Assembly: GCA_015039365.1 (NCBI GenBank)
Contig: WION01000025.1
Location: forward strand, 62,001-126,000
From: Amanita rubescens
Lineage: Eukaryota > Basidiomycota > Agaricomycetes > Agaricales > Amanitaceae
Direction: 5' to 3'
Length of the DNA stretch: 64,000 nt
This document shows positions 6,334 to 50,344 of the stretch, in pieces. The position numbers were made by a program, and so were the translations under genes. The notes under the pieces were generated by a model, which was not told the origin of the DNA, made no database searches, and worked only from the letters and a program-made list of their open reading frames with translations. Positions within the stretch are counted from its first letter, which is position 1, and each line of letters starts with the position of its first letter.

Positions 6334-6387
6334 CCGGTAAAAAACCGGCAACCGGACTGGACCGTTACCGGTTGCAACCGAACCGCG

Positions 6388-25615: not shown

Positions 25616-25983
25616 GTCCTACAACCTTACTCCACAGTTAGAGTTTTGAAGTCCAGTTGATAGGACTGGACCAGTGGTTGCAACCGGACCATCAGTTGCA
25701 GTTGCCCAATTTTGTAGGAGCAACCAGTTGCAGTCCTTTGATTTTGGGAAAAACAAAAGACTGGCCAAAGACCAATTGCAACTGGCTATTTGTAAAGACC
25801 AATATCTGTGTGCACATGGCCATAGTTTATGGCATATTTCCAACAATATTTCAGTTATTATGCGCCAGTGACATCATCAGTTTTCTACATTGTGCAACCA
25901 GCTTCTCCTTCGTACTTGTGGCCGTAAACCTAATGTGGTCCAATGACTTCAATCCAGTAGACCTTCAAGTGTGTGACCGCCAG

Positions 25984-26510
25984 TGTTATGATCACGTCGA
26001 TCTCCACCTACAATGTGTCCACGCCAAGAGCACTTGACAAAGTAGACTAAGTCCAACGGACAAGTCAAACAATAGGTGAACGAATAAGCTAAGTGATAAG
26101 ACGACTAGAAGAAGTCTTATCCTTGAGAGTGATAATGAACGGAGTAGGAACAACGTTCTTTAGGTGAGATAGGATGTGATATTGACAAAGACAAACTAGA
26201 CAGTTAAGTCGAACTTAAGGTTCGACGTTTACAGTACATCGGTTTATATACATGTACGAAAACACAGCCATATCGTAAGTAGAACAAGGGCGATAGCAAG
26301 TATAGACAAAACAGGAGGCATAGGGGATGGTACGTGTATGAACAAGGGGTTGGGCATAGGGTAAACGGAATGGGGATCGATAAGGGAACGAGGTAGTCCG
26401 TTTGATGTACATAATGGGGATGCGATGAAAGGATAGGCATATACGAAAAAGTAAGCATGTCCAACGTATCATGTAATCATAATGTAGGAGTCCGTACCGT
26501 GTTTGTAACA
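25984..26510 (-). repeat. 3' LTR of the gypsy element
   Basis: 527 bp. Read on the minus strand it starts TGTTACAAACACGG and ends ATCATAACA. TATATAAACC lies at 26241-26250, and 32-34 nt downstream is AAGTTCGACTTAA (26204-26216), the likely start region of the transcript. A purine-rich stretch (GAGGAGAG on the minus strand, just right of 26510) is a candidate polypurine tract. It differs from the 5' LTR at seven positions. Confidence 0.95.
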
Positions 26511-26559
26511 CTAGCTCTCCTCTACGTTGTTGACCGCAACAACAATATGCGGGTATCCT

Positions 26560-28275
26560 CTAGGTGTCGAGGTTGTGACGGGCGTTTTCATCGTCGTAAG
26601 GATGATAGCCAGCTGAGTTGTCGACGAAGACGTCGAAGTCATTCGTCTTGGTTCCATCCTCCTGCGTTCCAGTCGGTGGGTGTGTCTGTATACGTTTGGA
26701 CGAGCTCTTCGTTGTTGGCCTCAAGCGAGTTGAGGAGTTTGTGGAGAACCTTGAGGCGTCGATTCTCTTCTTTGAGGAGCTTGATGATGCGCTCCTTGGA
26801 TTCGTCGTCGGGACGAGGGACTGTTGGCGGTAGGGATGTGGCGGCGAAAAGCCGGACGTGGGACTGGTAATGGAGGAAATCCGAGATTTCCTGGTGGATG
26901 CGGGCGAGACGTTCCCGGCCGTCGAAGGCGCTGATGTTGAAGGCAGTGGGGGTGGACGTCGGTGTGACGTTGGAGATGGTGGGGATTTGTTGGGTCTGTT
27001 CTGCGTTCCCTTCCATAATCGATAAAGGTTGTGTTGGGGAATGAGCGAACGTCCGAGGTTCTTAAATCTTTCAGCGGTCTGGGCGACAGGCGTGGAAGGT
27101 ATAAGATTCTGATGGAGATCTAATTCCATCATGACGTGGGCAACTTCTTCATAGGCATTGTGAGAGAGTTGCTGCGGTTTAGCTCCTTTGGTAAACAGAT
27201 CTTCTGTCCATGCGGTAGTCCGTCTAGAAGATTCGGCGATTTCCTTGACTCGATCTGCTAGATCTGCTAAGGCGATTGCTCCGATTTCGGTTCTGTTTGT
27301 AAGCTCCAAGATATGCTGTGCGTCTGGTGCGATTCTGTGAGGGTCAAAGCTGTGGTGAATGGCGACGAGATCGTTGGGATCGTCGTTAAGGATGAATGGA
27401 GGGTGTATTTCATTCCTGACGTCTAAGATGGCTTGTTCATAGAAGCGTTCTACGTCAGCAGTGAGGATTCGACGTAAGAGGTCGACTCCAAATTGGTGGA
27501 TGGTGCATCCATGAGAGAGTTTGGTGTACCATTCCATACGATCTAAGTTGGTCCAGATTTCTATAAGATCTGCGCAGTGATAGTTGTATCGTTCTCGAGC
27601 GTTGACGATGATTGCCTTGGCGAGTCTTGCATCTGAGAGAATGCGCCAGAGTCTGGTAAGTCGTTCCAGTTCCTGAGAATTGATTGACAGGCCAGAAAGT
27701 CTTTTAATATCGTCAATAGTCTTTCGCATAAGAGCTGAGCTGTTATAGTCTGCGAATGTCGTAAAGATCGTCTGAGATTCAGAGGGAGTGATGTCTGCCA
27801 TGATTCGATGACTGCTAGGGCTAGCTGGGTTGTTATCATTGCTTCTGTCGTGAAGATCGCCAGTTGATTCCTTGTCGAATTCGGCAAAAGAGTCGGGGTT
27901 ATGATATACCTTTCGCATGTTATCAAGTATTTTCCTAATTCTCCTTGTATTTTCATTATGTCCTCCGTTATCTTGATCTTCTGTGGTATCGTGAGGACTC
28001 GTAGCTCGGCTTGTTCTGGGTGAATCATCAGGTCGATTCTCTTTGTCAGAATCTGAAGCGCTGTGATAAGGAACGAGACGTGGCCTATTGGGTTCGGTGA
28101 TCGTTGTCTTTCTGCTAGCATCCTGATTACTGGATGTATCGGGGGATTCGATGGTGGTGGTGGTGTTGTCGTCGTTGTCTGGGTAAAGACTGAGTATATA
28201 GGCAGTTCCGGTGATGGTGCTCTCGTTGTTGTTGGCGAGATTGTCGGTGAGGTTCTTGTTGATTCCATGATTCAT
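26560..28275 (-). CDS. Extra ORF downstream of integrase in the gypsy element
   Basis: An open frame of 571 codons sits between the chromodomain and the 3' LTR, where env-like genes lie in some elements. The first ~110 residues and last ~120 are Ser/Thr/Pro-rich and probably disordered. The middle (about 130-400) looks helical and folded (IDDIKRLSGLSINSQELER, RLWRILSDARLAKAIIVNAR, YTKLSHGCTIHQFGVDLLRR). I see no signal peptide and no membrane span, so an envelope role is not supported. A second frame of 235 codons (27561-28268) overlaps its 5' part and also looks helical, so a frameshift or two proteins is possible. Function unknown. Confidence 0.6.
   Translation of the reverse strand: MNHGINKNLTDNLANNNESTITGTAYILSLYPDNDDNTTTTIESPDTSSNQDASRKTTITEPNRPRLVPYHSASDSDKENRPDDSPRTSRATSPHDTTEDQDNGGHNENTRRIRKILDNMRKVYHNPDSFAEFDKESTGDLHDRSNDNNPASPSSHRIMADITPSESQTIFTTFADYNSSALMRKTIDDIKRLSGLSINSQELERLTRLWRILSDARLAKAIIVNARERYNYHCADLIEIWTNLDRMEWYTKLSHGCTIHQFGVDLLRRILTADVERFYEQAILDVRNEIHPPFILNDDPNDLVAIHHSFDPHRIAPDAQHILELTNRTEIGAIALADLADRVKEIAESSRRTTAWTEDLFTKGAKPQQLSHNAYEEVAHVMMELDLHQNLIPSTPVAQTAERFKNLGRSLIPQHNLYRLWKGTQNRPNKSPPSPTSHRRPPPLPSTSAPSTAGNVSPASTRKSRISSITSPTSGFSPPHPYRQQSLVPTTNPRSASSSSSKKRIDASRFSTNSSTRLRPTTKSSSKRIQTHPPTGTQEDGTKTNDFDVFVDNSAGYHPYDDENARHNLDT
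27561..28268 (-). CDS. Overlapping ORF in the gypsy 3' region
   Basis: 235 codons in another frame over the 5' part of the extra ORF. After a Thr/Pro-rich start it reads as amphipathic helices (HVSFLITALQILTKRIDLMI, KITEDIMKIQGELGKYLIT, QLLCERLLTILKDFLACQS). It may be the true N-terminal part of the extra protein, displaced by a frameshift near 27700-27850, or a shadow frame. I cannot decide by eye. Confidence 0.35.
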   Translation of the reverse strand: MESTRTSPTISPTTTRAPSPELPIYSVFTQTTTTTPPPPSNPPIHPVIRMLAERQRSPNPIGHVSFLITALQILTKRIDLMIHPEQAELRVLTIPQKIKITEDIMKIQGELGKYLITCERYIITPTLLPNSTRNQLAIFTTEAMITTQLALAVIESWQTSLPLNLRRSLRHSQTITAQLLCERLLTILKDFLACQSILRNWNDLPDSGAFSQMQDSPRQSSSTLENDTTITAQIL

Positions 28276-28315
28276 AGGTAGTTTCTGGGTGTTTGTAGGT
28301 GTAATCTTTGCTCAT

Positions 28316-29392
28316 TCAGAGTTTCCTACGTTTCTTATATTCGTCAAGGATATCCTCGGCGTTTGACAAGTTCCTTTGGGGTTCCCAAGTGTTTTCGCTT
28401 GTATCATAGCCTTTCCATTTGACGAGAAACTGTAATTGGTGTCCGATCTTTCGGTGTGCGAGAATAGCTTCTATTTCGTATTCTTCTGATCCTTCTATTA
28501 GATCGGGTGGTGGACGTGTGTCATTAGGTCCATGGAATTCTGTTTCTTTGAATGGTGATAGTAGACATGCGTGGAAAACGCTGTGTATCTTCCATTGTTT
28601 CGGTAAATCTAATTGATAAGTGACAGGTCCTAAGACTTTCTTTATTTTGAAGGGTCCTTCTCGTTTAGGTGCGAGTTTACGTGATTGATAAGGAATGCGT
28701 AGGTTCTTTGAATCTAGCCAAACCTTTTCTCCTTCTTTGAACGGTTTAGAGTGTTTCATCGTTCGTTGTGCCATTTTGAGGCGTGCAAGATCGTGTGCTG
28801 CCAGAGCTTCTTCTCTTGCTTTGATCAGGAGTCTGATACGTTCATCTGCTACAGGGGTAGCTGATTGTTCTGTAACCTGGGGTAGTGCCACAGGGTTAGA
28901 TCCATACATGAGATAGAACGGTGATTGTTTCAGTTCTTCATGTGTTCTAGAATTATGAGCAAATTGTGCAATAGGAAGTATCTTGTTCCATTTGTCTGGT
29001 TCATAGGCGCAGAATATGCGGAGGTATACTTCAAGTACGGCGTTATAGCGTTCTGTTTGTCCGTCTGTTTGAGGGTGAAAGGCGGTGCTCATTTTGTGTT
29101 TGATCTGAAGTGTGCTGGTTATCCCTTTGAAGACTTTTGCTGCGAATTGCGGTCCTCTGTCAGATATCATAATGTCTGGTAGTCCGAAGTTCTTGAAAAC
29201 TTCTTTGATGTAGAGGTCGGCGGTTTCAGCTGATGTAATAGTTTTATTACAGGGACATAGAATTACTCCCTTTGAAAGTCCTTGGTCGACCACGACAAAG
29301 ATAGAATCAAAACCGTCACTAGGCGGTAGATCGGTGATGAAATCCATAGTAATCTGTTGAAATGGTCGGTGTGCGTGGGATTTAATTGGCAT
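28316..29392 (-). CDS. Integrase core and chromodomain (pol, 3' part)
   Basis: 358 codons. It inserts the cDNA into host DNA. The catalytic Asp lies in ITMDFITDLPPSDGFDS, the second Asp in ISDRGPQFAAKVF and the Glu in FHPQTDGQTERYNAVLEVYL (the DDE triad). A GPY/F-like module follows (KREGPFKIKKVLGPVTYQLD), and a C-terminal chromodomain (YEIEAILAHRKIG, LVKWKGYDTSENTWEP), which in chromoviruses directs insertion toward marked chromatin. It begins where the RT frame ends, shifted by one base at a short C run. Comparison with related elements suggests a one-base loss at the RT/integrase border, not a programmed shift, but this is inference. Confidence 0.92.
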   Translation of the reverse strand: MPIKSHAHRPFQQITMDFITDLPPSDGFDSIFVVVDQGLSKGVILCPCNKTITSAETADLYIKEVFKNFGLPDIMISDRGPQFAAKVFKGITSTLQIKHKMSTAFHPQTDGQTERYNAVLEVYLRIFCAYEPDKWNKILPIAQFAHNSRTHEELKQSPFYLMYGSNPVALPQVTEQSATPVADERIRLLIKAREEALAAHDLARLKMAQRTMKHSKPFKEGEKVWLDSKNLRIPYQSRKLAPKREGPFKIKKVLGPVTYQLDLPKQWKIHSVFHACLLSPFKETEFHGPNDTRPPPDLIEGSEEYEIEAILAHRKIGHQLQFLVKWKGYDTSENTWEPQRNLSNAEDILDEYKKRRKL

Positions 29393-31213
29393 TAGGGAGC
29401 GGCGGTGGGGTGTGTATTAGGTTTCATTTGTTGACAGGTAAGACATCCGTCGATAAAACTTTTGACAAGCGTTGTCATTCTAGGCCACCAGTAGTGTTCT
29501 CTTAATAGGCTAAGTGTTTTGAAGAATCCAGGGTGTCCTGCACTCGGTGCTTCATGGTATTCTTTAATAATAGATCGGCGAAGATCGGAGTCCATTGGAA
29601 CGTATGCTTTGTTTTTAAATAGAATAATTCCGTTATTTTCGGTCCAATCGGTGATAGCTGTGCGGAGGGGTGCTGTTCCTTTCTCCTTTAAGCATCTTCT
29701 AATGGTTTCAGCAAACTCGTCGGTTTGAGTTGCGTTCTTTACTTGATCTCGGAGATCTTCGGCGATGACTTGAATGAATAGTGAGTCAGGGAGCATCGTG
29801 ACTGTCTCGTCATCTTCTTCTCCATTGGTGTGATCTGGTCGGCGGGATAAAGCGTCCGCTTGGGTTAATTTTGCTCCAGGTACATGAATTAGTTGGTAAT
29901 TATATCTTGAGAGATTATTCCACCATCTTGCTTGTCTAGCTGTGAGACGTTGTGGTGCGCGGTAATAGGTTAAGTTTTTGTGATTGCAGTGTATAGTGAG
30001 TGTGTGTTCTGCTCCAAGCAGTAGGTACTTCCATTCGTCGAGGGCGTAAATTATGGCAAAGAGTTCTCTGTCGTAGATTTGCCAATTTCGTTCAGTAGGT
30101 GTAAGTGCGTGTGAGAGATATCCACAAGGGTGTAAGTCTCCGTTTTCGTCTTTCTGCATTAAGGTGGCTCCGACAGCCCATTTAGATGCGTCAGTTTCAA
30201 GTATGAAAGGTTGATTGACATCTGGCATCTTTAGTACTGGTGCTGTTACGAAACTTTCTTTTAATGAGTCGAAGGCGACTCTACATTCTAGTGTCCATTC
30301 CCATATCTTGTTTTTCTTCGTTAAGTCGTGAAGGGGTCGTGCGAGGTGCGCGAATCCGGATATGAAACATCTGTAGTAATTTCCAAATCCAAGAAACGAG
30401 CGTACTTGTTTAACTGTTGTCGGAGGGGGCCAGTCTCTGATTCCAGCGAGTTTTATTGGATCCATTTTTATCGTGTCTTTAGTGATTATCATGCCTAAGA
30501 AGTCTACTTCTTCGGCGGCAAATTTGCATTTTTCAAGTTTCAGGTAAAGATCGTGTTCTTTTAATTTTGCGAGTACTAGCTTTGTTCTTCTCTCGAGTTC
30601 TTGTTTGTTGCGCGCGTGTATCAAGATGTCATCCATGTAAATGGCGATCCATCCTTCGTTTATGAAGTCTCTGAAGTAATCGTCCATCATAGCTTGAAAT
30701 GTTGCTGGTGAATTGCGTAATCCAAAGAACATAACTGTTGGTTCGAATAGTCCTTTATTCGTGATGAATGCGGCTTTCCATTTGTCTCCTTCTTTGATGC
30801 GAACATTGTTGTATCCCCATCTGATGTCTAATTTTGTAAAGTATTGCGATCCTTTAAGTTGTAGCATCAGATCGGATATGAGTGGTAGGGGGTAAGAGTT
30901 TGGTTTCGTGTGTTCATTCAAGTATCGGTAATCTTGGCAGGGTCTGAGTGTTTTGCTATCCTTCTTTTCGACATAAAAGAATGGCGCTGCCTGCGGAGAT
31001 TTGGATGGTCATATATATCCTTTAGTTAGTTGTTCTTTGATCCATTCGTCAAGCGTATTTTGCTGTAATGGTGATATTGGGTAGATCTTCCCTTTTTTTG
31101 GTATAAAATCTTCGCGAAGTTCAATTGCGTGGTCCCAAGATCTGCGGTCCGGGAATCGTTCTGACACTTGTTTTTCAAATATCTCTTTCCATTCGAGATA
31201 CTCAGGAGGTAGC
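29392..31213 (-). CDS. Reverse transcriptase, RNase H and integrase zinc finger (pol, middle)
   Basis: Copies element RNA into DNA and removes the RNA strand. The RT shows YPLPLISDLMLQL, FFGLRNSPATFQAMMD and the catalytic YMDD followed by ILIHARN. RNase H has the active-site Asp in LETDASKWAVGATLMQ, and the integrase HHCC zinc finger is seen in YHEAPSAGHPGF and CLTCQQMK. The frame is open from 29392 to the solo LTR at 31214 except for one TGA at 31009-31011, where relatives have Arg (CGA to TGA is a CpG transition). The RT core downstream of that stop has no other break. It was part of a longer polyprotein, so no separate start is proposed. Confidence 0.92.
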
Positions 31214-31739
31214 TGTTATGATCACGTCAATCTCCACCTACAATGTGTCCACGCTATAAGCGCTTGACAAAGTAGACTAAGTCCAACGGACAAGTCAAAC
31301 AATAGGTGAACGAATAGGCTAAGTAATAAGACGACTAGAAGAAGTCTTATTCTTGAGAGCGATAATGAACGGAGTAGAAATGACGTTCTTTAGGTGAGAT
31401 GGGATGTGATATTGATAAAGACTAACTAGACAGTTAAGTCGAACTTAAGGTTCGACGTTACAGTACATCGGTTTATATACATGTACAGAAACACAGCCGT
31501 ATCGTAAGTAGAACAAGGGCGATAGTAAGTATAGGTAAAACAGGGGGCATAGGGGATGATACGCGTATGAACAAGGGGTTGGGCATAGGGTAAACGGAAT
31601 GGGGAATGATAAGGGAACGAGGTAGTCCGTTTGATGAACATAATGGGGATGTGACGAAAGGGTAGGCATATACGAAAAAGTAAGCATGTCCGACGTGTCA
31701 TGTAATCATAATGTAGGAGTCCGTACCATGTTTGTAACA
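31214..31739 (-). repeat. Solo LTR of the same family inserted in pol
   Basis: 526 bp, clearly the same LTR as the outer pair but more diverged. It is flanked by GTAGC (31209-31213) and GTAGT (31740-31744), a 5-bp duplication with one C/T change. Counting the duplication once restores the gag-pol reading frame across the site, so this is an insertion into a formerly continuous pol and not a deletion product. Confidence 0.9.
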
Positions 31740-31744
31740 GTAGT

Positions 31745-32472
31745 GTGATTTCCTTCTGATTGGTGTTGTATTTATGTTCCATTTGTTGGGCTGGTGAATA
31801 GCGATTAATCGTGATCTCATCATAATCTTCTTCAGTCCATCTTCTTATGTCTTCAAATGGTAGTTTCCAACGTAGACTCTTCTCTTCTGGTCCTTTGTGT
31901 GACAACAAATACCAAATTACGACGTCTTCTTCCCATTTAGGCATTGCTTCTTCATCGAGTCGATGCAAGATGCTCCGTATTGATGCCTTCCATTCGTCTT
32001 CTTTGGAGTTACGGAACTCCAGAGTTCTATTCCTCCAGCTTATGATTGGGTCATACTTCTCGAGCCACGGAAGTCCCAGTATCAAGTTTTGATCGCCAAG
32101 CGAAGTGACCAAGAACCATTCGGTCATCTTCTTTCCATTGATGTTGATGGTGATCAAACACTTGTCAGAAATTTCTCCATTCGTATTATATGTGCCGTCA
32201 ACGTTCTTGACTCGGATTGGTCTTGCAAGTTTCTTCTTTCTCCATTTGTGTGCGATTGATGAGTTAATAAATAAACCTTCTGCACTGCTGTCGACCAGTG
32301 CAGTCATTGATTCAGTGTTGTCTTCGGTTTCAACTTCTAGGGGGATAGATAATCGATTGCTTGAAATAGAACGTACTATTACAGGTGATATCGAGAGATC
32401 GTCCTTTGGAGTTGAATCCGAAGTTATGGGACAAGCATCCACTGACATGTGTCCCACTGTCAAAAATCCGGT
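31745..32472 (-). pseudogene. Retroviral-type aspartic protease (pol, 5' part), active site altered
   Basis: Would cut the Gag-Pol polyprotein. The active-site region reads TALVDSSAEGLFINSSI, where the family has Asp-Ser/Thr-Gly; here the Gly is Ser (AGT for GGT). Downstream come LVTSLGDQNLILGLPWLEKY, the second half of the fold, and the Trp-rich linker to RT. An in-frame TAA (32473-32475) separates it from Gag, and the solo LTR cuts it from RT. The Ser change should abolish activity, judging from how strictly the Gly is kept in aspartic proteases. Confidence 0.85.
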
Positions 32473-32631
32473 TTATCTGCGTTGATAAGGAGGTTGATAC
32501 GTTGATCTGGAGAGTTTCTTTAGCATAGCGCGTATCGTTCTGTCACTAGTGTCTTCTTCTTCTTCTTGTTCATGCTGGCTAGACTCTTCGACGTCTTTGT
32601 AGTTACTGCCATCGTCATCCCTTTCGGTTGC

Positions 32632-34200
32632 TCAAATATGACGACCGTGTGCGAATTTCTTTCCTTTCTTTCCATTAAACTTCTTCTTTCCTTTGTAAGA
32701 TCCTTTATCCTTCCTCATGGGGCATTGTCCTGACATGTGGTCTGGTTTATGACATATGAAACAAAGTCCATCGCGGATATGTCGGGTACGTTCGTCCTTG
32801 GATAACGCGCCAAGAATTATTGCATCGAGATCCATATCCCATTCGTTTCGAGGGGGTTTGTGTGAAGATGTCCCTCCTCTGTTGGTTGCTAGAATGCCAA
32901 TACGTGTTTCGGCGTTGTATGCTCTGAGTGCTCCTTCATACCATTCATCTAAGGTTTTAGGGTCTCTCATTACGACTGCTCTGTACGTGTTGGCGTCGAG
33001 TCCTTGTCCGAACATGTGGGTAGCGGCACTGCCTGTGATTCCAGCTTTCTTTATGAGTTCTTTGAATAAACCAACGTATTTTGGGATTGATATTCGTTTT
33101 CCTTTCTTGTCTTTGCGTTTTTGTAGCTGTACTAATTCTGTGTACGCGTTTCCGGGTGAATCTATTTCTTGCCAATTATTGAGGAATCTGGTTTTAAATC
33201 CTGTCCAGTCGTTCCATGTTATCTCCATTTTTGCTGTATCGTTAAGATCGTCGTTTTGATTGCGTCTCCAGTTCTCAGCTTTATCGGTTATCATAGATAA
33301 CGTCAGTCCGATTTTAAGTCTATCTGTGTTGATGCGTCCTGGATTGAGATCTAGGAATAGCTCCATTCGATCTATGAAATCCTGTGCTTGAGATCGCTTT
33401 CCTGTGAAGGTAGGGATCTCTCCTAAGAGACTAGGAATCGGTTGTATTGCTGGCATCGTCATTGTAGCTATTGGTGGTTCTGGAGGTGGTGTAGGCGGTT
33501 TCTGTGGTGGTACTGGTGGTCCTGGACTAGGATCGGGTTTAGGATCGACTTCGATGTACTGAAGTCCTGGGGAATTCGGTTTCTCCTGTTCTGTTTCAAA
33601 CGGGTTGAAATCGATTGGGCTAAGTAAGTCTGGAACAGTTTTGTCTTCCGACTCGGAAAGGTCACTGGAACTTTCGAATTGCTGATCAGGGTTTTCGTCA
33701 CTTGATTCGGTTCCTGATTCGCTTTCTTTTACTCCAAAAGTTTTACCTTTTGGTGTAGTTTTGACTGCTGCTTTCGGTGTAGAGACTGCGCTTCTGTGCT
33801 GTAGGCTTTCGGGCAAGTTATCTGGGTTTCCTTCTATCCACTTGGGTCCTTTGAAGAAATCGTCTGGTACAAATTCGTATGTGAGTTCTGATTCAGGGCC
33901 TGGGTTATATCCTCCCCAACGTTTAGTATTTTTGTCGAATTCTACTTCAAATCCTAGGAGATAGTATTTGTCGTTGAATCGATGATAGAATGCGTTGTTG
34001 GGTGGCCTGTTGGCTCTCTGTGGTATCCAAAACTCTGATGTTGGTACGAGACTGTGGTCTTTCGAATATTTCCAAAGGTGGTCCTTAGGGTTGTTGTAGA
34101 TAGCGATGTGATCTAGATAATAATGTCCTCTTGTTCCTCTTGTAGCACAGTTAGGCGGTGTCCTCTGTTGATCCGAAATTGTTGCAGGCTGACCGGTAAC
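32632..34200 (-). CDS. Gag with CCHC zinc knuckle
   Basis: Forms the particle that packages element RNA. The frame is open from just after a TAG at 34201-34203 down to a TGA at 32632-32634, about 520 codons, with no ATG upstream of about 33816, so the true start is lost or lies in another frame. In order there is a charged N-terminal part, a Pro-rich segment (PPQKPPTPPPEPPI), a retrotrans-gag-like core (DFIDRMELFLDL, WNDWTGFKTRFLNNWQEIDS, FGQGLDANTYRAVV) and the zinc knuckle CFICHKPDHMSGQC (CX2CX4HX4C). A basic tail precedes the stop. Gag, protease and RT are in one frame. The TGA and the TAA at 32473 may be mutations or a readthrough arrangement; the former seems likelier. Confidence 0.85.
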   Translation of the reverse strand, partial: VTGQPATISDQQRTPPNCATRGTRGHYYLDHIAIYNNPKDHLWKYSKDHSLVPTSEFWIPQRANRPPNNAFYHRFNDKYYLLGFEVEFDKNTKRWGGYNPGPESELTYEFVPDDFFKGPKWIEGNPDNLPESLQHRSAVSTPKAAVKTTPKGKTFGVKESESGTESSDENPDQQFESSSDLSESEDKTVPDLLSPIDFNPFETEQEKPNSPGLQYIEVDPKPDPSPGPPVPPQKPPTPPPEPPIATMTMPAIQPIPSLLGEIPTFTGKRSQAQDFIDRMELFLDLNPGRINTDRLKIGLTLSMITDKAENWRRNQNDDLNDTAKMEITWNDWTGFKTRFLNNWQEIDSPGNAYTELVQLQKRKDKKGKRISIPKYVGLFKELIKKAGITGSAATHMFGQGLDANTYRAVVMRDPKTLDEWYEGALRAYNAETRIGILATNRGGTSSHKPPRNEWDMDLDAIILGALSKDERTRHIRDGLCFICHKPDHMSGQCPMRKDKGSYKGKKKFNGKKGKKFAHGRHI

Positions 34201-34277
34201 CTACGGGCCGGTTCTCCGGAAGTTCGATAGTTATCTTGTGTTTCACCAACGAGGTAATACTCGGGTATCGTTTTGAT

Positions 34278-34290
34278 AAGTTCGACTTAA
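34278..34290 (-). other. Primer-binding site of the self-priming type
   Basis: One base inside the 5' LTR, the minus strand reads TTAAGTCGAACTT. It is the exact 13-nt complement of AAGTTCGACTTAA in the LTR (26204-26216, minus strand), which lies 32-34 nt after a TATA box. It does not start with the TGG expected from a tRNA CCA end. This is the arrangement by which Tf1/sushi-type elements prime from the 5' end of their own RNA. Confidence 0.7.
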
Positions 34291-34291
34291 T

Positions 34292-34818
34292 TGTTATGAT
34301 CACGTCGATCTCCACCTACAATGTGTCCACGCCAAGAGCGCTTGACAAAGTAGACTAAGTCCAACGGACAAGTCAAACAATAGGTGAACGAATAAGCTAA
34401 GTGATAAGACGACTAGAAGAAGTCTTATCCTTGAGAGTGATAATGAACGGAGTAGGAACGACGTTCTTTAGGTGAGATAGGATGTGATATTGACAAAGAC
34501 AAACTAGACAGTTAAGTCAAACTTAAGGTTCGACGTTTACAGTACATCGGTTTATATACATGTACGAAAACACAGCCGTATCGTAAGTAGAACAAGGGCG
34601 ATAGCAAGTATAGACAAAACAGGAGGCATAGGGGATGGTACGTGTATGAACAAGGGGTTGGGCATAGGGTAAACAGAATGGGGATCGATAAGGGAATGAG
34701 GTAGTCCGTTTGATGTACATAATGGGGATGCGATGAAAGGATAGGCATATACGAAAAAGTAAGCATGTCCGACGTATCATGTAATCATAATGTAGGAGTC
34801 CGTACCGTGTTTGTAACA
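34292..34818 (-). repeat. 5' LTR of the gypsy element
   Basis: 527 bp, the same length as the LTR at 25984. Seven differences from it were found by direct comparison and every one is a transition at a CpG. One of them (TCGA to TCAA on the plus strand) falls in the self-priming motif. Confidence 0.95.
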
Positions 34819-34823
34819 GCCAG

Positions 34824-36160
34824 TGTGGGTATGCCAGTGTCAAATGCAACGTTCATTTGTTCAAGAACCTGTTCCATAAGCCCTGAACATCCCACTCTTG
34901 TCCACATCTGGGCCCTTTTGATTTCAATGACAAGGATAATCTGTCGTGTATGGAGCTAACTACATTGATGCTTTCAACAATGGCAGCCTGGGCACATAAC
35001 TATGAATATGTATGTACTGCACTAATACCCCTGAAGCAATATATTAGTATGAATGATGTTCCTAATTCTCATTCTGGGGTTGTTCTGGGCTGTGCAACAC
35101 AGTGCCAAAGAGATCACCAACTTAGAGACCACCAAAGAGATTGAACCCAGTTATGGTCCAGGGCCCTTGGGCTTGATAAGGGTTTGTAGATGGAGTATTC
35201 AATTGTTTCTAGGGTTTTTTGGGTTGCCAAATCCAATGGTGATGTCAACATAGTACACAAACTGGCTGCAAATGCCCATAAACTCTCCCAAGGAACTCCA
35301 AACCAACTGTTATCAGGTTCTAGTCCATGTTCTTTTAGGTAGATCCTAGTCTTTATTCTGGAGATAATATCCCATTCTTCATCCAAATCCTGGTAGTAGT
35401 TGTTCTCTGCATCCAGATCTTCATGCCTGACATATCTGAGACCAGGAATGGCACCCTCTGGGCCATTGCATGCTCCAAATAACCTTCCCCACCACAATAA
35501 CTTCTCTGCCATCCTTGATGCTCCGATGTACATATAGCGGGTCTCAGTTCCAGTTTCGAGAGCAGCGCTGCTTATGTAGGAGCCAGAGGAGGGTGGAAAG
35601 TAAGATGATGCCTAGGATGGACAGTCATATGATGTTGCTGATAAAATTGTGGATGTTAAAGGGGGGATTGAAACGCAGAGGTTGACATGCTAGAGATGGT
35701 GGTGAGGTTGAAGATGTCAAAGACGTTGATGAAGTTGAGGGAATTGACATGAATGCATACAAACTGTGGACAAAGGAAATGTCTAAGTGTTAGAGTTGAC
35801 GTGGAAAGTGGTGTTCCATCTCTGATTGTCATGCTGTTTGTTATCATGCTTTGCTACATTGCTTCTTGATTTCATACTTTTTCTGGCATCATATCCACTA
35901 GACATTAGACACATCTGCATTGAAGGTTTCTTTAGAATGGCAAGCTGATATGAGTACTTGACCTATGTATGCTGGAGCATGAGTGATGGTAGTTTGATCT
36001 GGTCATCAAACCACTGCTTCCTTTCAATGACATCCCACCCCGGTTCCTGTATCTACCAATAGATGGGCTCAGATGACAATTCATTGGGGTATGTTGTGAT
36101 GGAACTCGGTGAGAAACAGCTCACCGTAAACTGTCTGGTCAAGCTCTTCTCCTAATCTGG
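34824..36160. other. Repeat-rich stretch with a decayed minus-strand frame
   Basis: A minus-strand frame at 35114-35533 (EDLDAENNYYQDLDEEW, RIYLKEHGLEPDNSWFGVPW) has a protein-like look but no start, partner exon or family that I recognise. The rest has only short overlapping frames. Confidence 0.35.
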
Positions 36161-36524
36161 TGAAACACTGCAGAGTGCTCTGGGGTGTACCCAGCACTGC
36201 AGGTGCCATGTACAATAGTGCACAGACTTATGCTAAGGCTGATCTGAGGAAAGGGGGAATCCAATTCTCATTGGGGGTCTCTTCTCTCGTATATGACTCT
36301 ACATGTGACATGTACTTTTACTACCTACCATGCGGTATCCATGCGCAATCATTCCAAGACATTCCAAATACTCCGACATATTCCAATGTATTCCAACATA
36401 TGAGCGAAGCGGATCAAGGCAGAATGAAGGCAGACAAAAGCAGAATAAAGCAGACAGTGCCAGTGGACATCTTCAGAAGGCTTTGGAGTACACTGCACAC
36501 TGTAACTGGATTTCATCCATTACA
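36161..36524 (-). repeat. Short solo LTR, family R, copy 5
   Basis: TGAAACACTGCAGAGTGCTC...ATCCATTACA, 364 bp. Flanks are CTGG and CCAG, both derivable from CCGG by a CpG transition on opposite strands. It lacks the two insertions present in copy 3 and so serves as the empty-site reference for the 306-bp fold-back element. Confidence 0.7.
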
Positions 36525-37100
36525 CCAGAAATATTGACTTTCAAAGTTCCAACTCTCTATATGGATTGCGGCTAGACATAAAGTTGATGATACATCGACA
36601 ACATCTTGGTTCATGAAGGATGTGCATGAGATCAGATCTCCTGTGGAATTGGCTACCAAAAGTAATCAGACTGACTGCTGGACAATCAGGATTCAGATGT
36701 GATATTGAAGCCTCCCATTGTCTAGCGCATAAGTTGTACCCAAGTTTGCCTTGTAAATCACTCAAATATTGCCATTGCAAGATACATGTGGAAGAAATTG
36801 ATCAATCAAACACCTCCCTTTCAGCCAAACACCATCCAACTAGGAAGAAGAGGAGGAATATCTCATTTATAAGGAGGTCAATAGAGGGCTCATTCAACCA
36901 TTAATGTCTACTTAGATCAAAGACACCCCATCAAAGGTGGAAACTGCTAGGCTATCAAATCTTCCCAATCACCACCTGCAAATCTTGGTTAGTGCTTTCA
37001 CCAGCTTGATGGGCTTAGTAGTTGGTTGTTGCCTAAAGGTGGGGAGATATTGAAGAATGGCATTCTCTTCACACAGCCATTTCTAAAAGACATTGTCCAG
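36525..37100. other. No supported feature
   Basis: Short overlapping frames only; no repeat ends seen. Confidence 0.4.
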
Positions 37101-37128
37101 GCTCATCTTCATTGGTTTGGGTTGACAG

Positions 37129-37718
37129 GTGCCTGGGTTCTCTGCCATATGCAAAATACTTGCAATGCCTCTTTGTCCTCTTGACTTGTCCAATTGTCCT
37201 GGATCACAGGTGAAGCATGAAGAATACAAAGTGCACTGCAGAGAGAAACATCACAATACATACCATGACTTTCATCGTTGTGGGATGACTGTCACAATCA
37301 CCAGAACAACTGTTTCCAACTGCTTTTGGGCATACAGTGTCAATGACCAGTGCAATGATGAAAGTACCTAGGCAAAAGACTGGCATCAGTTATTGTTTGG
37401 ACCTAAAAAAGATTGTTGACTTACCAAACACTTGATACGGCTGGCATGGAGAAAAGGTCCCAGACACTCAAAACAAAAAACAAAAAACGTAGTTGGTTGA
37501 CATCGACAAAGCGATACTGATTTTGAGTGTTACATTAGCTTCAGCCCATATGTGAGAAACCAACCTCGCGATGATCACCAGAGAAGGAATTGATGAGAAT
37601 AGTAGAAGAGATTAACGCCAGAAAACCCTGCAATTGCGAGGGGATTTGAGTTGACGGCTATGTCAGGCTGGCTCTCAGCCCTTGCAGAGATGCCGGAGGA
37701 AGCAGAGTCCTCATCTGT
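37129..37718 (-). pseudogene. Possible fragment of a small membrane-protein gene
   Basis: An ATG at 37718 opens MSTDEDSASSGISARA..., and a later minus-strand piece (37204-37386) reads GTFIIALVIDTVCPKAVGN and MKVMVCIVMFLSAVHFVFFM, two hydrophobic spans. A good intron (donor at 37424, acceptor at 37370) joins a short exon to this piece, but I could not carry one frame from the ATG to it. It is either an intron-rich gene that I failed to resolve or a remnant. Confidence 0.3.
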
Positions 37719-37719
37719 A

Positions 37720-39190
37720 GACATGAGAAGGAGATTGAGTGTCATCGTCTGTGGTATGCAGTGGTTTATATGCTAAAAGTGTGCAGTTCTATCCTGGGAG
37801 AACGACTTGAAGGGTCGGGCTAGTTATCTATATACTGCGACTCCGCGAGGCAGGGTGCTGTTCGAAAGTGGTAGCAGCTCATGGCGGGAAAATGGTGAAA
37901 TAGAGAACGAGTCGAGCCCCACCGCCTTACGCAAACGGAACGGTGTTCCCTTCCTGTCTAACGGCGGACCGAACTGGGTGGGGGACGGTGGATCTGAGTC
38001 TGGGAATGCATCGTCTCGAGATTTGCAACAGCGAACGACCGGGACCGCGAAGGAGATTTAGGTAACGCCCGTAACGGAGCAGCCAATGTACATCGGGAAA
38101 AACGGAGATGCATCAGGAAAAACGGAGAACTCTGTTTAGTTCCGATTATATGTATATAGACAGAATTTGATCTAATTACGCCAGGATTAGATTAGTTCAC
38201 CCCCCCTATATTTTTGTCTAAGTTATGCCTAATAAGCATTAAAAGAACCACATTATACAAGAATAAGTATTGGCATTTTCCTCGAGATCACTCAGATTTA
38301 CGATGACAAAACTAAATAGTATATTGCTATTAAAGAGGGTATCTAGACTATAACATACTAGTGTATGTGTTACTAACACAGGTGCTACGCTTACCCATAC
38401 TGTTTACAGGTTCGCACGTTTGTAACCTATCAGGACCACGGCCACAAATCTTATGACCCGCTGCGGGTCATCAAGGATGATTGAGTTGCGACGAAGAACG
38501 GGTTTGACGCCCATTCCCATTGCGAGTTTTCCTCTGTCGTCTTCATGTATCCATAATCCTGGTATTAAGTGAGAAAGGGAGAAAAGAGGGCATTGACGAC
38601 GTACACGTTTAATTGAAAAGGGTTGAACGCAAGATGGGGAGCAAGAAGGGTTACGTGCATGTGGTGACGACCAGTGGATACAAGATACAAAGAGGGTCCT
38701 GGCAGAGGCGTGGAGGTGGCAGAGTGTGAACAAATATTAACTTAGATCTCATTGGAAGCTGGTGGCGTGCGATAGGGTGATATCAATACAGAGCATTTAG
38801 CGAGTGTTTTACGCTCACCAGAACCCGAGACTGCCCGCAAGCAGCCTCACCCTTCCTCGGCTCTCTCAAGAGAACGTGGGGGAGAATATCTCAAGCAAGT
38901 CATGATGGTCTACGTCCGAGAAACTGGTGCACTCAAGTTCTGAGCCGGGCGGGCACATATCATTCGAGGTCTGGTTTTCCGGAGCAAACGTGAGTGAGAG
39001 GATGAAGCTAAGCCTGTGAATTCGGAGTCACTCACCTTATTGCATGGGCGATGGTAGGCGATGGTGGGGGAAGCTGACAGCTTATTAGAGCGTGCAAGGG
39101 ATCAACTTGAAGTTGAACATGTCACGTGACAAACAGAAGCAAATAGTGGACTTGACATTTTTGCGGATGATTGATTCCCCTTGCGCAGGG
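37720..39190. other. Gene-poor stretch with one exon-like scrap
   Basis: On the minus strand, 38407-38560 reads WIHEDDRGKLAMGMGVKPVL and DDPQRVIRFVAVVLIGYKRA after a good splice acceptor, which looks like the last exon of something, but no upstream exon is evident. About 38100-38400 is AT-rich and empty. I see nothing else. Confidence 0.3.
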
Positions 39191-43900: not shown

Positions 43901-45542
43901 ACCGCGGGATTGACCGCATAAGGGGAGGTTGGAGTTGGACGCGCTGTTGTTGTTGACTGCTGCTGCCCGCGTTGGAGGAAGTGGAGGTGGAGGTGGCAAT
44001 TCTAAGGGCGCAGAATCGGGGGAATGGAACGCGTCAGAAGCGCGAAAAAACCATCCACCACCGCCGTTTGGTCTTGGAGGGCGAGGAGAGACGGGTCGAG
44101 ATGGTGGCGTGTTATCATGGCGGGAAGATGTGGTGGAAAGAGGTAATGAGGAGAGGGAGCTTGCTGGGCGGCCTGAATCGTCTGGTGATCCTGTAGGGGT
44201 ATGGTTAGTTTCGAAGATGAATGGAGAGGAGGAATAACGTACCGATTACACCGCCCTCTTGTTGGGTCGTGCTGATTCGTTTCTTTCGGACGCCCCATTT
44301 CTTGACGCTCCCTATACGGCTCAGAAGCGCGTTTTTCGCGCCAGAAGGAGTGGATGGGGGAGGAATCGGAGGTGAACCATGATGGTTGCTTAATGGAGTA
44401 GTGTTTAGGCCAGGAATGGGAGAAGGAGCCGGTGAAGACGGGGCGCTTGATACAGGCGTTTGTGGCGTACGAGGCCGTGAAAGGCTGCCTCTGTGGATAC
44501 TATCTCGGGCTGGAGTTTGGGGACGTTCGACTTCATGTAACGCTGCTAGTCCAGACGAGAAACTCGATGACACGGGTAACATTTCGAACGCGGCTTGTGA
44601 CTGTGGGCGATTCTTTTTCCTTAAACGACGACGTTCCCGCTCCTTTTGTGCCGGCGGATTGGGAGGTAGATGAGATGAAGTACGCGATGCGGGGTAGAGA
44701 TGGGCAGTGGATCCGTAGTACAGGGAATCCCCCGCTATGGTTGTTGGCAACGAGAAGACTGAGGAAGAGGGGGATCGTGGAAATGGCTGCGGGTGGTCGC
44801 GATTGCCGCCTGCCAAGTGGGCCGGTAAAGCAGGGACTGGCGGGGGAGGTGAGCCATCCAAAGGATGGTCAGTCACTGAATTCAAGCGCGCTGGACCCGG
44901 GCGACGCAAGCGCCCAGTGACGGTTCTGTCTTCGTCTTTATCCAAGAAACCCAGATCATCGTCTTCCTCGTCTAAATCCGATCCGGAAAATGCGTTTCTA
45001 AAACGAGCGTATTGCGCAGAGGCGCTTGAACTTGCTCTATGGCGTCCTAGGGCCGATGGCTTGAAATCTACGTTTTCGTTGTTAGTCGAGAGGGGCTGCA
45101 TGGAACGATGGTTTCTGGAGAGTTCCTTGGTAGGAGAAGACTGTTCTCCCCTCGTTTTGCGTACGGGTGTGTCGCTCTTGTCCTCAAAATCGTCGTCCCA
45201 ATTCTCAGTTAAGGTGAGGTGTTTGGCGGGCGTCGAAGGGCCAGCCTCGACCGTAGGTGCAGTAAACACCTTTGCTCGACGGGTTGGAGACGAATCTGTG
45301 GGAGAATCCTCGGCTGCATCTGCATCCCAATCAACTGTGAAGCGCGAACTTGTTGTTGACATGCGTGCCAGTGGTGCATTGTCACTATTGGTTGAATGTA
45401 AAGTAAAAGTTTTGTTTTTTCGTGGAGGAGAGTTTGGATTGAATTCGAAATCGTCATCCCAGTTCTCTAATAGCGCGCACGACGCGTTGATGAGGGTTTT
45501 GAATTGACTAGGAGGTTAACTGAGCGCACCTGTAGCGGTCAT
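40911..45542 (-). CDS. Large Byr4/Bfa1-like protein, 1487 aa (septation/mitotic-exit scaffold, tentative)
   Basis: Exons are 45530-45542, 44243-45466, 42805-44190 and 40911-42751, with introns of 63, 52 and 53 nt; all phases agree and give 1488 codons. The first exon is only 13 nt and splices straight into the motif ENWDDDFE (residues 5-12), which recurs near residue 92; a variant VDWDADA lies near 48-54. Long Ser/Pro/Gly-rich disordered parts follow. Conserved-looking islands are FIRSVRRISIVGRHKR, SLGDLKIPARITQAQVGLRR continuing across an intron into DLGMVRDFAQNVEQLKGLQ, VEIQALLDSHAQ, FYTINSKYRITWECAELLIE and SLAAIFRI. These recall basidiomycete proteins annotated as Byr4, which with Cdc16 forms the GAP for the septation GTPase. 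I am sure of the gene and only moderately of the name. It is divergent from the F-box gene, with 94 bp between start codons. Confidence 0.8.
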
Positions 45543-45636
45543 GGTGCCATCTAGTCGAGCCAAATGACTCTGGCCTGACGTCTAGAGTCCGCCTGGTGGT
45601 CGTGACGAAACGCCAAGTTAGGGTTAAGGTTAACCC
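45543..45636. promoter_or_regulatory. 94-bp divergent promoter
   Basis: Only 94 bp separate the ATGs of the Byr4-like gene (minus) and the F-box gene (plus), so the core promoters and 5' leaders must overlap or be very short. It contains no clear TATA box. Confidence 0.6.
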
Positions 45637-47548
45637 ATGCTCAAGGCTCTGCCTCACGAACTTATCGAACAAATTCTTTTGAAACTAGACCCAAAAGATA
45701 TCAGAAATTGCAAGCTAATTTCAAGTCAATTCAATGACTTTATCTGCTCTTCAATTGTACTCCAATATCTATTGGCTTGTCAAGTTGCAGGCGTCATAGA
45801 CAACCCTCATTCCAATCTCTCATACGCAGACCGTTATGATCGCTTATTAAAGCGAGAAAAGGCATGGTCCAGTCTTCAACCAGTTTTTACAACAACATTT
45901 GATGCGACAAACGAACCTTCTTCAATATACGACTTGACCGCAGGCACTTTTCTTCTAGGCGACGTCAATTACCGAGATCTCCACTATTGCACCCTTCCAT
46001 CCACACCCGACGATATTCCCCAATGGATTACCCTCAACGCTCATGGGCCAAACAGGGATTGGAGCGGAAACATCATTGACATGGGCATGGCCGTCTACGA
46101 ACATGATCTCATCGTCAACGTCGTCTCGTGCGTGCGTCATTTCTTATTCTATGAATTCTTCTTCTCATTATTATCAACACTAGATCCCCGATTAATATCC
46201 ATGCGAGTCGCATCGAGTATACGCTCGATATGATTCTTATTAAATTCTCCACTGGCGAATACCATCCGCTGGCCCGCCGACCACGAATCCACGTACAAGA
46301 TTCTTACGGACCACGTCCAGCTATCGCGCTGGATGTCGTCGGCGACACCCTCGCTCTGGCAGTAAACAACCTCCGCGGGATGTCCCGCGATAGACTGTTC
46401 ATTTTTGACTGGAAAACCGGCCATACACGACTGGTCAGTACGCTCGTCTACATCATACCTTTAACCTTCACTTTCTTTTCGATAGCAACACGAGGCTACA
46501 GAAAACGCCTATGCAAGTCTCACATTCATATCACCCAAAATCCTCCTCGTCCCCAACGTCGTCCTCGGGCACTACGAAGTTTGGAAAATCCCAACAGAAA
46601 CAGACGACGTCCCTCACCAAATCCTAAGCCTCTGCTTCCCGGCCCTCTCCAGAGGGCACTTCATCCTCAACCTCGTCTGCCGCGGCGAGCCTAACCCATA
46701 CCTCCACACCCTCGCCTACGCTCCATCTAGACCCTTCCACGCCTCCCCAGACGCCTCCATCATCATAACCATCATCCGCCTCGCCTCTTTCCCAGGCCTC
46801 CTTGGCGCAGCCTACACCCTCATCATCCACCGCCAATCTCTCCTAACCACCATCTCAAACCTTACCACCCACCCCAGCTTTCTCACCCTCCCACTCAACA
46901 CCAACCACCACCACTTCCACCACCTCAACCGATCAATCATCACCACCCCAGAAACCGAAATGCGCTACTCCCTCTCCTCCTTCTTCTCTTCCGACTCCCA
47001 CGAACTCTTCTCCACCTCCTCCTCCTCATCGGACTCGTCTTCATTGGGAGGCACATACGGCGTATATTCCATCCCATGGTCCGAATGGGGCCCTCCCATC
47101 TCAAGATGGTTCGACGACGACCAAACTCAAACGAGGTGGATCACCGTCTCAGCCGGTCAACGATGGGCCGTGCTCGATCCCTCTGAGGAAGACAACGGGA
47201 TGAAATCGAGGATTAGGATTATCGATTTTAATCCTTATAATATCCACCGTGCATGCGTAGTAGTAGATCATGACGGTTTGGCGGGAGAGATGGTGATTGA
47301 GAGGAAAGGAGATTATTTAGGTCGTGGACATGCTTTTGCGGAGGATATTGAGATGGGGTTGGGGTGTACGATTTATACGGCGCCTGAGTTGTATGATTTT
47401 GATGGGTTGTTGATGGAAGAAGAGAGGTTGTTGGGGTTAAAGGTGCGTGCAGTGTGTGCGAGTTTTGTATCGTTTTACTTTACTTATGGTTGGGTAGATC
47501 AATGAGGGGGGGAATGTCGAAAAGATTACTATTTTTCATTTTGGCTGA
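45637..47548 (+). CDS. F-box protein, 582 aa
   Basis: Exons are 45637-46127, 46184-46433, 46486-47442 and 47498-47548 (introns 56, 52 and 55 nt), 583 codons. The N-terminal F-box reads LPHELIEQILLKLDPKDIRN and CKLISSQFNDFICSS, the module that binds Skp1 so that the rest can present a target to an SCF ubiquitin ligase. The remainder has blocks typical of basidiomycete F-box proteins with a degenerate propeller-like C-terminal region (LIVNVVS, ALDVVGDTLALAVNN, LFIFDWKTG, KILLVPNVVLGHYEVWKIP, WITVSAGQRWAVLDP), ending KITIFHFG. Without the last intron the frame runs into a short unrelated tail; the spliced end matches the decayed copy at 54.9 kb, which supports it. The target is unknown. It is convergent with HNH copy 1. 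Confidence 0.88.
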
Positions 47549-48138: not shown

Positions 48139-49732
48139 CTAATGTATAGTAAGGCTACCCATCCCAGGAGTCAGATCAACAGCAGCAAATGCCGACGCGA
48201 GATAGTTTAGATCTTCAAGCTCGTCCGCCTTGGGCACCTTAAGCTTTGGGAGCTCGTCGCCCCACTTCCTGAGTATATAATCAATAAACCCTGCTGCACC
48301 ACTCATGTGCATTATATTAGTGACAGCGGCATGGATCGCAATAAGTCGAGGATTTGGTAAAGCCACGCCCGACGATGTGGCGTGCCGTTGTTGCCCAGAA
48401 CGAAGATGATGGCCATACGCCGGAGGTGGTTCGAGAGTTTCTTGATACTTGTGTGAATGATCTTCGAACTTGATTACGGATTCCTGAAGACCAGGGATTT
48501 CAACATTAGTAAATTTGACAACTTTATACATATTTGGTTCGGAGTTCTCCTTGGGCTGAAGCAAATCATGTAGTTATATTCGAAGCCCGCGCAATCGAAA
48601 CTCACCCAAGGTACGAGGCAGAACTTGAAACGGTCAAATACAGAATGAATTTGTTCAGCTAATATCATGCCATATGCAGGAGTGTCGAGTATATCACCTA
48701 GATTCCGCAATTCGTGGGCGGCGCGGGGGAAAAGATGGACAAGAATGTCAAACAATGATACAGAGCAGCGATCCTGTAGCAAATGTTGTTAAAAGGAATC
48801 AAATATATGGTCATTGATACTGACGGTTTTAGCTGCGCGAGTTCCAACTGCTCTTTTCAAAATGTGGGCACAATGCAAGACTGCTCTTGGACCGTGACGT
48901 TCATCTGTCTCTTTATCAATATCCAAATACCCAGAGACGACACATTTATGATCATCGCGAACAATTACCTGAGCCAAGAAAAATATACATAAATACTGCC
49001 GGTGATGAATCGGAAGGACCTAACGCACAGCCTGAATTTCAGTTAAACCAGTATGACTTGCAGTTTCTTCGATCGTGGGCGTTGCGTGTTCAGAGAAGTC
49101 TTGAGCAGTATGGTTCTCGTTGTGGCGAACTAGAATAAACTGAATAAATATACGAACTGCAAGAGAATTGACGCACACGGCCAAAGGAAGAGGCCGAACC
49201 ATGTATTAGCGAGGCGTACGTATTGATCCAAGTCGCCTCGACAGGATACAATAGCAGCAGCAACATAGCGCTCTGCCTTACGAGAGTCTTCAGATTCTGA
49301 GCTTGCAGAGCTTGCATATCGCAGCATTGCATCTAACAGCCGATAACAATCAACGCGTACTTCTCGTTTCGCATCAGATGGCGCTGGAAGTAAGCGCTCT
49401 GTGTGGTCTATCCTAGAGAGCACTGATAAGTCCCCCGTTGCCAGTTTAACAAGAGCAGTCGTTGGATGTTCGTTCAAGTTGTCGAGTAGCTCTTTGATAG
49501 TGGTTTCCTGGTCCGGCCGAATGATATCACTAATTGACCTAACAGACGTAACGGCATCCATTGAGCCGTCACGGGACAGCGGAGCCGCTGAGGCACCGGT
49601 TAGGGGAGCATCTAGAGCAGGTTCGGGAATAGATGCTTCAGAGATCGTCGATTGGCTTCTAGTTAACATTTCTTCCACCTTTGACACATCAGTGGCAGCA
49701 GAAGAGGCAGAACCAGTGCGACGATGTGACAT
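48139..49732 (-). CDS. HNH-nuclease-type protein, copy 1, 461 aa (Tyr at the HNH Asn)
   Basis: Exons are 49177-49732, 49029-49129, 48825-48968, 48606-48773 and 48139-48555 (introns 47, 60, 51 and 50 nt), 462 codons. After a Ser-rich start comes a helical domain (SISDIIRPDQETTIKELLDN, AERYVAAAIVSCRGDLDQYV), then an HNH module of the PF13391 kind: RDDHKCVVSG, HCAHILKRAVGTRA, and the third element GMILAEQIHSVFDRFKFCLV. Copies 2 and 3 have Asn before this Gly; here it is Tyr (PAYGM), so the middle residue of His-Asn-His is lost. The C-terminal domain is well kept among copies (GAAGFIDYILRKWGDELPKL, KADELEDLNYLASAFAA). The usual role, cutting DNA with one metal ion, is inferred from the fold; the cellular task is unknown. 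Confidence 0.85.
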
Positions 49733-49993
49733 AGCGAGCGCGACAGTTAGTGGCAGAAGGACGACGAGTGGCGTTCACAACAAAGTTGAACGCGATGGCG
49801 GAGGACTGTGACGTCACGCGTCATCATGCATCTTTTTTTAATTTTAATAAGAGATGTATTGAGAATACGTATGTATATATACAAATTTGTGCTAGCAAAC
49901 CAGAGGGTTTGATCAGATAAGAGTGGGTAGGTAAAACGTAAGAGATGAAGAAGCTAGCTTCGGTAATGAGTTAGATCGGACCCGAAAAAGAAA
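49733..49993. other. Upstream region of HNH copy 1
   Basis: No gene. Probably promoter and leader; similar sequence precedes copy 3 (AGCGAGCGCGACAGT, GTGGCGTTCACAAC against AGCGAGCACGATAG, GTGGCATTCACAAC). Confidence 0.5.
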
Positions 49994-50344
49994 TTAAGGA
50001 ACGTCAAAGGGAAGATCTTCGAAGGTAAAAGCGTATGTGTTTTCTTTTAAGAAGCGTTTGAGTAATATGCTACCATTTCTGTGCCTTGTGAGGTAATTTA
50101 AGTTTGAGAAAGAATATACGTAATTGCATTTAGTTAAGATATGTTCTCCGAGTGATTGGAAACACCCGCAATAATTGCATTTAGTTAAGATATGTTCTCC
50201 GAGTGATTGGAAACACCCGCAATAATTGCATTCGGTTCGTTTTGTTCCAACCTTATGGGCGCTCTTGCGAGGCCCAGACTGACCAGCATGTTTCGGTGCG
50301 CAGTTACTCTCAGATTGGGGGACGCCCATGAGGGAGGTCACCAA
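49994..50344 (-). pseudogene. Fragment resembling the zinc tail of a LINE-type reverse transcriptase, with a 51-bp tandem duplication
   Basis: A minus-strand frame holds ECNYCGCFQSLGEHILTKC, a CX2CX8HX4C pattern like that at the C-terminal end of many LINE reverse transcriptases. The unit is repeated in frame because 50121-50171 is duplicated exactly at 50172-50222 (51 bp, 17 codons). No reverse-transcriptase core is present, so this is a short remnant. Confidence 0.45.

Follow-up and report, generated by a model that had tools for sequence, protein, structure and literature searches.

Positions 25984–34818 of a 64,000-nucleotide stretch of the Amanita rubescens genome (GCA_015039365.1, contig WION01000025.1, positions 62,001 to 126,000; the whole stretch is hereafter called the window) are occupied by a Ty3/gypsy chromovirus, a chromodomain-bearing retrotransposon that is read on the minus strand. 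Pfam matches on that strand follow the order gag, protease, reverse transcriptase (RT)-RNase H, integrase, as in Ty3/gypsy chromoviruses, and a chromodomain (PF00385, E 6.6e-18) lies at the integrase C-terminus. Both long terminal repeats (LTRs) are 527 bp long, start with TG, end with CA and are enclosed by a 5-bp target duplication, GCCAG, again as in chromoviruses. The element is built as follows.

25979..25983, no strand: left target-site duplication GCCAG, of which the empty allele (locus L115) has a single GCCAG
25984..26510, minus strand: LTR, 3' in the sense direction, 527 bp, delimited by sequence comparison
26204..26217, minus strand: LTR segment complementary to the putative primer site (proposed role)
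26511..26526, minus strand: purine-rich tract preceding the 3' LTR, likely the polypurine tract
26560..28311, minus strand: 583-codon open frame downstream of the integrase, without a Pfam match
28316..29416, minus strand: integrase core, SH3_Tf2-1 and chromodomain (PF00665, PF24626, PF00385)
29392..31008, minus strand: reverse transcriptase, RNase H and integrase zinc domain (PF00078, PF17917/PF17919, PF17921)
31009..31011, minus strand: in-frame RT stop at a CpG-loss site, private to the window copy among seven compared
31209..31213, no strand: left target duplication of the nested LTR, GTAGC, read from the sequence
31214..31739, minus strand: solo LTR of the same family, nested between protease and RT; 526 bp, identity about 93.4%
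31740..31744, no strand: right target duplication of the nested LTR, GTAGT, followed by G, read from the sequence
31745..32472, minus strand: protease portion of a frame continuing into the nested LTR (PF08284), with codon 32284–32286 altered at a CpG
32632..34200, minus strand: gag, Ty3 capsid-like (PF19259), with a CCHC motif seen by eye in the translation
34277..34290, minus strand: putative primer-binding site adjoining the 5' LTR, 14 nt (proposed role)
34292..34818, minus strand: LTR, 5' in the sense direction, 527 bp, delimited by sequence comparison
34819..34823, no strand: right target-site duplication GCCAG, read from the sequence

The 583-codon frame has 25 distant relatives, all of them unnamed or hypothetical proteins, and is overlapped by a 236-codon frame at 27561–28271. 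Chromoviruses of the Tf1/sushi type have a chromodomain integrase and a self-complementary primer site. The window element resembles them in its chromodomain integrase, its SH3_Tf2-1 match and a putative self-complementary primer site, and differs from them in the extra 583-codon frame after the integrase; self-priming is putative here. The 14 nucleotides at 34277–34290 are complementary to the 3' LTR segment at 26204–26217, a layout of the self-priming type, and a complement of 13–14 nt within the LTR was found in four of six LTR comparisons. The target duplications of the nested LTR do not match each other; since the uninterrupted site reads GTAGCG in five of six other copies and GTAGTG in the sixth, C737, this mismatch also fits a CpG to TpG change.

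The two LTRs of the window element differ at exactly seven sites and by no insertion or deletion (26032/34340, 26152/34460, 26211/34519, 26270/34578, 26367/34675, 26389/34697 and 26463/34771). At all seven, one LTR has CG and the other has TG or CA. When a CpG in either LTR is counted, 29 CpG dinucleotides make up 58 of the 527 positions, and the chance of all seven differences falling on such positions is about 2e-7. CG is the commoner state at every one of these sites, being held by 57–64 of 65 other distinct LTR copies. An earlier reading, made from the letters of this stretch alone (the sequence-only reading), had reported the same LTR boundaries and seven differences, all at CpG, and a base-by-base comparison reproduced both exactly. 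It had also read the stop in RT and the altered protease codon as fitting the same process; both are CpG losses, and the six other copies compared have neither.

We then have the family as a whole to consider. The genome, 75.7 Mb in 786 contigs, has many copies, and 40 of 446 LTR candidates were scored. A second LTR was sought at 40 further places, 17 of which yielded two LTRs; with nine already found and the window, this brought the number of pairs examined to 26. For the counts we kept 20 distinct pairs with a 5-bp target duplication. The pairs dropped were C7 (the same as C125), C557 (target duplication unreadable; four CpG and two other differences), C35 (no match for the first 70 bases of the left LTR; differences at 10 CpG and 27 other positions, with indels), C98 (truncated; no differences in 307 bp), C201 (without a target duplication; one CpG difference) and C30 (one LTR incomplete; six CpG differences). 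As a separate observation, the places in C125 and C7 (loci L012 and L013) are identical over 9400 bp, element included, which could reflect either a duplicated assembly or identical haplotypes.

The 20 pairs contain 37 CpG transitions at 1191 CpG positions and 12 other substitutions at 9207 positions, a rate ratio of 23.8 (Fisher p 2e-25; bootstrap over pairs 9.7–111). Thus the family-wide LTR comparison that the sequence-only reading had proposed came out as expected, with 37 of 49 substitutions being CpG transitions, and without the window pair the counts are still 30 CpG against 12 other substitutions. At all 37 CpG differences, other copies more often have the CpG form, so that these differences are CpG losses. 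The non-CpG differences of C608 and C146 were found in no other copy. That of C345 and C385 is common to these two pairs only; they also agree in target duplication and adjacent letters and probably represent two alleles of a single insertion, and counting the difference once leaves 11 non-CpG substitutions. An alignment of 67 copies gave 13, owing to another gap placement in C230. Four LTR-like pairs met by chance elsewhere, among them one place represented in both C759 and C167, have eight of nine substitutions at CpG.

The LTR spectrum can be set against changes private to single copies in the internal part of the element. Seven of nine full elements were compared (C7, as a duplicate of C125, and C462, which spans two loci, were excluded), the window element being taken in two pieces that flank the nested LTR. 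Its private changes number 28 over 516 CpG positions and 61 over 5762 other positions. If all of these had arisen after insertion, 6.3 CpG and 9.9 non-CpG differences would be predicted between its LTRs; seven and none are observed. For the seven elements pooled, 59.8 non-CpG LTR differences are predicted and four observed (p 6e-21), and therefore the non-CpG variety mainly predates insertion. The corresponding figures for CpG are 25.4 predicted and 13 observed: about half of the private CpG change postdates insertion, and for the window copy taken alone nearly all of it does. In C14b and C11, copies with identical LTRs, private changes are merely 1.8-fold enriched at CpG. C230 departs from this two-phase scheme, with 25 private internal CpG changes and none in its LTR pair. 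Its LTRs (locus L011) differ only at non-CpG sites that are variable across the family, while private CpG changes are many internally; these LTRs have likely been exchanged between copies.

The age of the window insertion can be judged from its flanks, which join exactly in contigs C71 and C527. As they join in C71 with one GCCAG, C71 represents the empty allele. Compared with the window, the C71 flanks differ at 8 of 38 CpG and 10 of 2282 other positions, and the LTR pair at 7 of 58 and 0 of 469. Because LTR divergence is below flank divergence, the insertion looks younger than the split of the local haplotypes, and the lack of non-CpG differences between its LTRs is not in itself surprising.

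CpG-rich divergence is also seen between contigs C759 and C167, which are apparently allelic across a repeat-containing block. Over 15.6 kb, aligned in three parts and leaving aside about 0.6 kb that has no partner, they show 52 differences, of which CpG transitions account for 42 (ratio 47). These differences are evenly spread (X2 14.7, 16 df), and part of the block is low-copy, with two near-identical places in the genome and the next only 81% identical. As a gene control, we compared a gene locus of the window (44300–46900) with C770 and found that 13 of 370 CpG positions differed, as did 32 of 2228 non-CpG positions, an odds ratio of 2.5. This ratio is exceeded in each of three other sets (z 4.8–6.1), namely the LTR pairs, the C759/C167 block and the flanks of the empty site. 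At the gene locus, C71 is identical to the window across 4101 bp. A gene query from window 44300–45400 found three places at 98–100% identity (C168, C71 and C770) and three at 86% (C662, C363 and C535), pointing to several haplotypes along with another, diverged set, and perhaps to a hybrid or polyploid.

Along the window, the observed/expected CpG ratio (o/e, in 2-kb steps) is 0.11–0.58 in 2001–26000, except for 0.90 at 6001–8000, and 0.90–1.13 in 38001–64000, where the long host frames lie; depletion is also strong at 34001–38000. An excess of TpG/CpA accompanies the depletion in much of 2001–26000. Within this region, the repeat pair 8454–9127/23046–23700 was considered as an LTR control and rejected, since its edges lack LTR form; it differs at two of 12 CpG positions, in one case by a transversion, and at 10 of 642 others. 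Most of its differences are thus non-CpG, yet the per-position rate is about 11 times higher at CpG. The CpG-depleted DNA also holds a 306-bp inverted repeat, 100% identical between 4174–4479 and 9520–9825. It matches itself in direct orientation as well (93%), which makes it nearly palindromic; it is a possible miniature inverted-repeat transposable element. On the other side of the element, window 48150–57056 contains three tandem related stretches (48150–49774, 51232–52933 and 55377–57056; 75–84% DNA identity), and an open frame at 61078–61860 resembles a fragment of a GH18 chitinase.

Deamination of methylated CpG after insertion is the best reading of these data, and we hold it to be very probable. 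The transitions are concentrated at CpG, affect both strands and represent CpG losses, and the genome has DNMT1-like and DNMT5-like genes. An exon-by-exon search of the genome for PF00145 gave three loci, nearest to DNMT1, DNMT5 and Dnmt2 chains. Locus L108 holds a DNMT1-like exon (best PDB match DNMT1, E 2.7e-16); the best match of L109, DNMT5-like, is 7r76 (E 4e-71), which is titled DNA repair protein Rad8 and which we take to be Cryptococcus Dnmt5. According to a 2026 review (PMC13297926), DNMT1-RFD and DNMT5 form the CpG toolkit of basidiomycetes, concentrated in transposon-rich regions. The proposed course of events is that, once the local haplotypes had separated, a Ty3/gypsy retrotransposon with a chromodomain inserted here, that DNMT1/DNMT5-type enzymes of the host would maintain CpG methylation in the silenced DNA, and that spontaneous deamination of 5-methylcytosine (5mC) would then yield CpG transitions as almost the sole point changes; non-CpG differences among family members would mainly have arisen earlier, during copying through RNA. 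The sequence-only reading had favoured the same process, and the spectrum supports it; we infer CpG methylation itself from the methyltransferase genes and the spectrum, and likewise a gradual deamination rather than a burst resembling repeat-induced point mutation (RIP).

Several observations weigh against this reading. Pair C230 has no CpG and four non-CpG differences and pair C91 two and four, so that the two together hold 8 of the 12 non-CpG differences of the family, and the variants recur in 5–24 other copies; this suggests that they came by exchange between copies, a post hoc reading. For three of the 37 CpG differences, the variant is also held by 16–17 other copies. As judged from the 25.4 predicted against 13 observed, part of the private CpG excess predates insertion. 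The CpG changes in the LTRs lean to one strand (25 vs 12, p 0.047), and the gene control is one locus of 2601 bp. The earlier claim that CpG transition is nearly the only mutation since insertion holds for the window copy (7/7), and for the family it needs the caveat of C230 and C91. As to the strand lean, private internal CpG changes in the seven elements show none (47 vs 52), and runs of same-strand changes in the window element are not in excess (14 vs 14.5 expected); strand-specific editing, APOBEC-like or linked to replication, was rejected on these grounds despite the 25:12 split in the LTRs.

The same spectrum could come from a CpG-preferring, RIP-like enzymatic hypermutation of repeats before meiosis. 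CpG-biased mutation of basidiomycete transposons is on record, with a TpCpG preference in Pucciniomycotina (PMC4014442 and PMC5381629), and the CpG excess described here does sit in repeat-containing DNA. However, the TpCpG preference is not seen: TCG changes at 0.022 (8/363) and the other contexts at 0.033–0.042 (ACG 17/509, CCG 6/178, GCG 6/142; p 0.64). Nor does the window element show strand blocks, the changes are evenly spread and are present also in a stretch of the C759/C167 block with just two near-identical places in the genome, and CpG differences per pair run from 0 to 7 with a mean of 1.85 and a variance of 3.3. The PF00145 loci are nearest to the three chains named above, and the CpA preference of ascomycete-type RIP is absent from LTR substitutions that fall on CpG in 37 of 49 cases. 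We regard a RIP-like process as unlikely. CpG could instead be hypermutable genome-wide, with no tie to silencing, and the gene locus does have an excess, 2.5-fold over 2601 bp and 3.9-fold over the first 1101 bp; against C662, the homologue at 86%, it is 2.9-fold. The ratios of 24–48 found elsewhere nevertheless differ from it at the z values given above, and o/e is near 1 where the long host frames lie, which leaves this explanation very improbable.

Gene conversion or recombination, moving existing CpG variants into one LTR, has candidates in C230 and C91, which differ at widely family-variable sites, and each of the seven window variants is present in 1–8 of 65 other copies. Such transfer should bring common non-CpG family variants too, and the window pair has none; moreover, the internal rate of private CpG change, unshared with the six compared copies, matches the LTR rate. 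We give conversion very little weight for the window pair. Sequencing or assembly errors at methylated CpG, for instance nanopore miscalls, would yield the same pattern. This is scarcely credible given that four of the 20 pairs (C14b, C11, C223 and C134) show no difference at all, that private CpG rates vary from 0.011 to 0.054 between the seven elements, that the internal CpG rate of the window element matches its LTR rate, and that CpG depletion with TpG/CpA excess in much of 2001–26000 is long-term decay and not miscalling.

CpG-biased decay in basidiomycete transposons has precedents, and both the bias and the proposal of 5mC deamination as its cause are already published (PMC4352252, PMC4014442, PMC5381629). 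Amselem et al. 2015 (PMC4352252) describe CpG-only transitions in transposons of three basidiomycetes, propose 5mC deamination, and report a Masc2-like DNMT1 and no RID. The transition type and the presence of a DNMT1-like gene are alike here. That work used a consensus or the GC-richest copy as reference, mixing replication errors with later decay, whereas the comparison of LTR pairs and of apparent alleles singles out what came after insertion. The RIP-like TpCpG pattern of Microbotryum Gypsy elements (PMC5381629) is similar in the Gypsy family, the CpG-containing target and the few changes per copy, but has a TpC preference that is absent here. In Rhizoctonia solani AG8, an agaricomycete with internuclear CpG hypermutation, haplotype differences are likewise rich in CpG to TpG; in that report (PMC4014442), genes and repeats are at about the same level and CpG accounts for about 40–50% of C–T changes, unlike here, where CpG positions hold 42 of 52 differences in the repeat-containing block but, at a single gene locus, 13 of 45. 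A fungal study exactly on LTR dating and CpG decay was not found among the titles of the literature searched, which lacked most subscription journals. What is new here is an unusually clean family instance of almost CpG-only decay, with a two-phase refinement.

LTR-pair dating often applies a single rate to all sites. In the 20 pairs, divergence is 0.0047 when all sites are counted and 0.0013 outside CpG, a ratio of 3.6, and the earlier claim that an LTR clock overestimates age is right in direction if the rate derives from unmethylated DNA. CpG makes up about 11.5% of LTR positions, yet 76% of LTR divergence, and methylation state therefore bears on LTR ages no less than time does. Splitting CpG from other sites provides a fast and a slow clock in one element, and makes it possible to distinguish the retrotransposition error spectrum from host-driven decay. 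By a small margin over even chances, in our estimate, each copy of the family carries a replication record, which predates insertion and is mostly non-CpG, and a residence record, which accrued afterwards almost entirely at CpG. The residence record may also end the life of a copy, because its targets include the RT stop, the protease change and the putative self-primer: among the seven lost sites is the CpG at 34519, which corresponds to one in the primer-complementary stretch of the 3' LTR, and the primer-site complement of at least 8 nt is absent from both the window 5' LTR and the C737 LTR used, each of which has lost a CpG in that segment. If this is true, the two separable records would make up a built-in two-rate clock.

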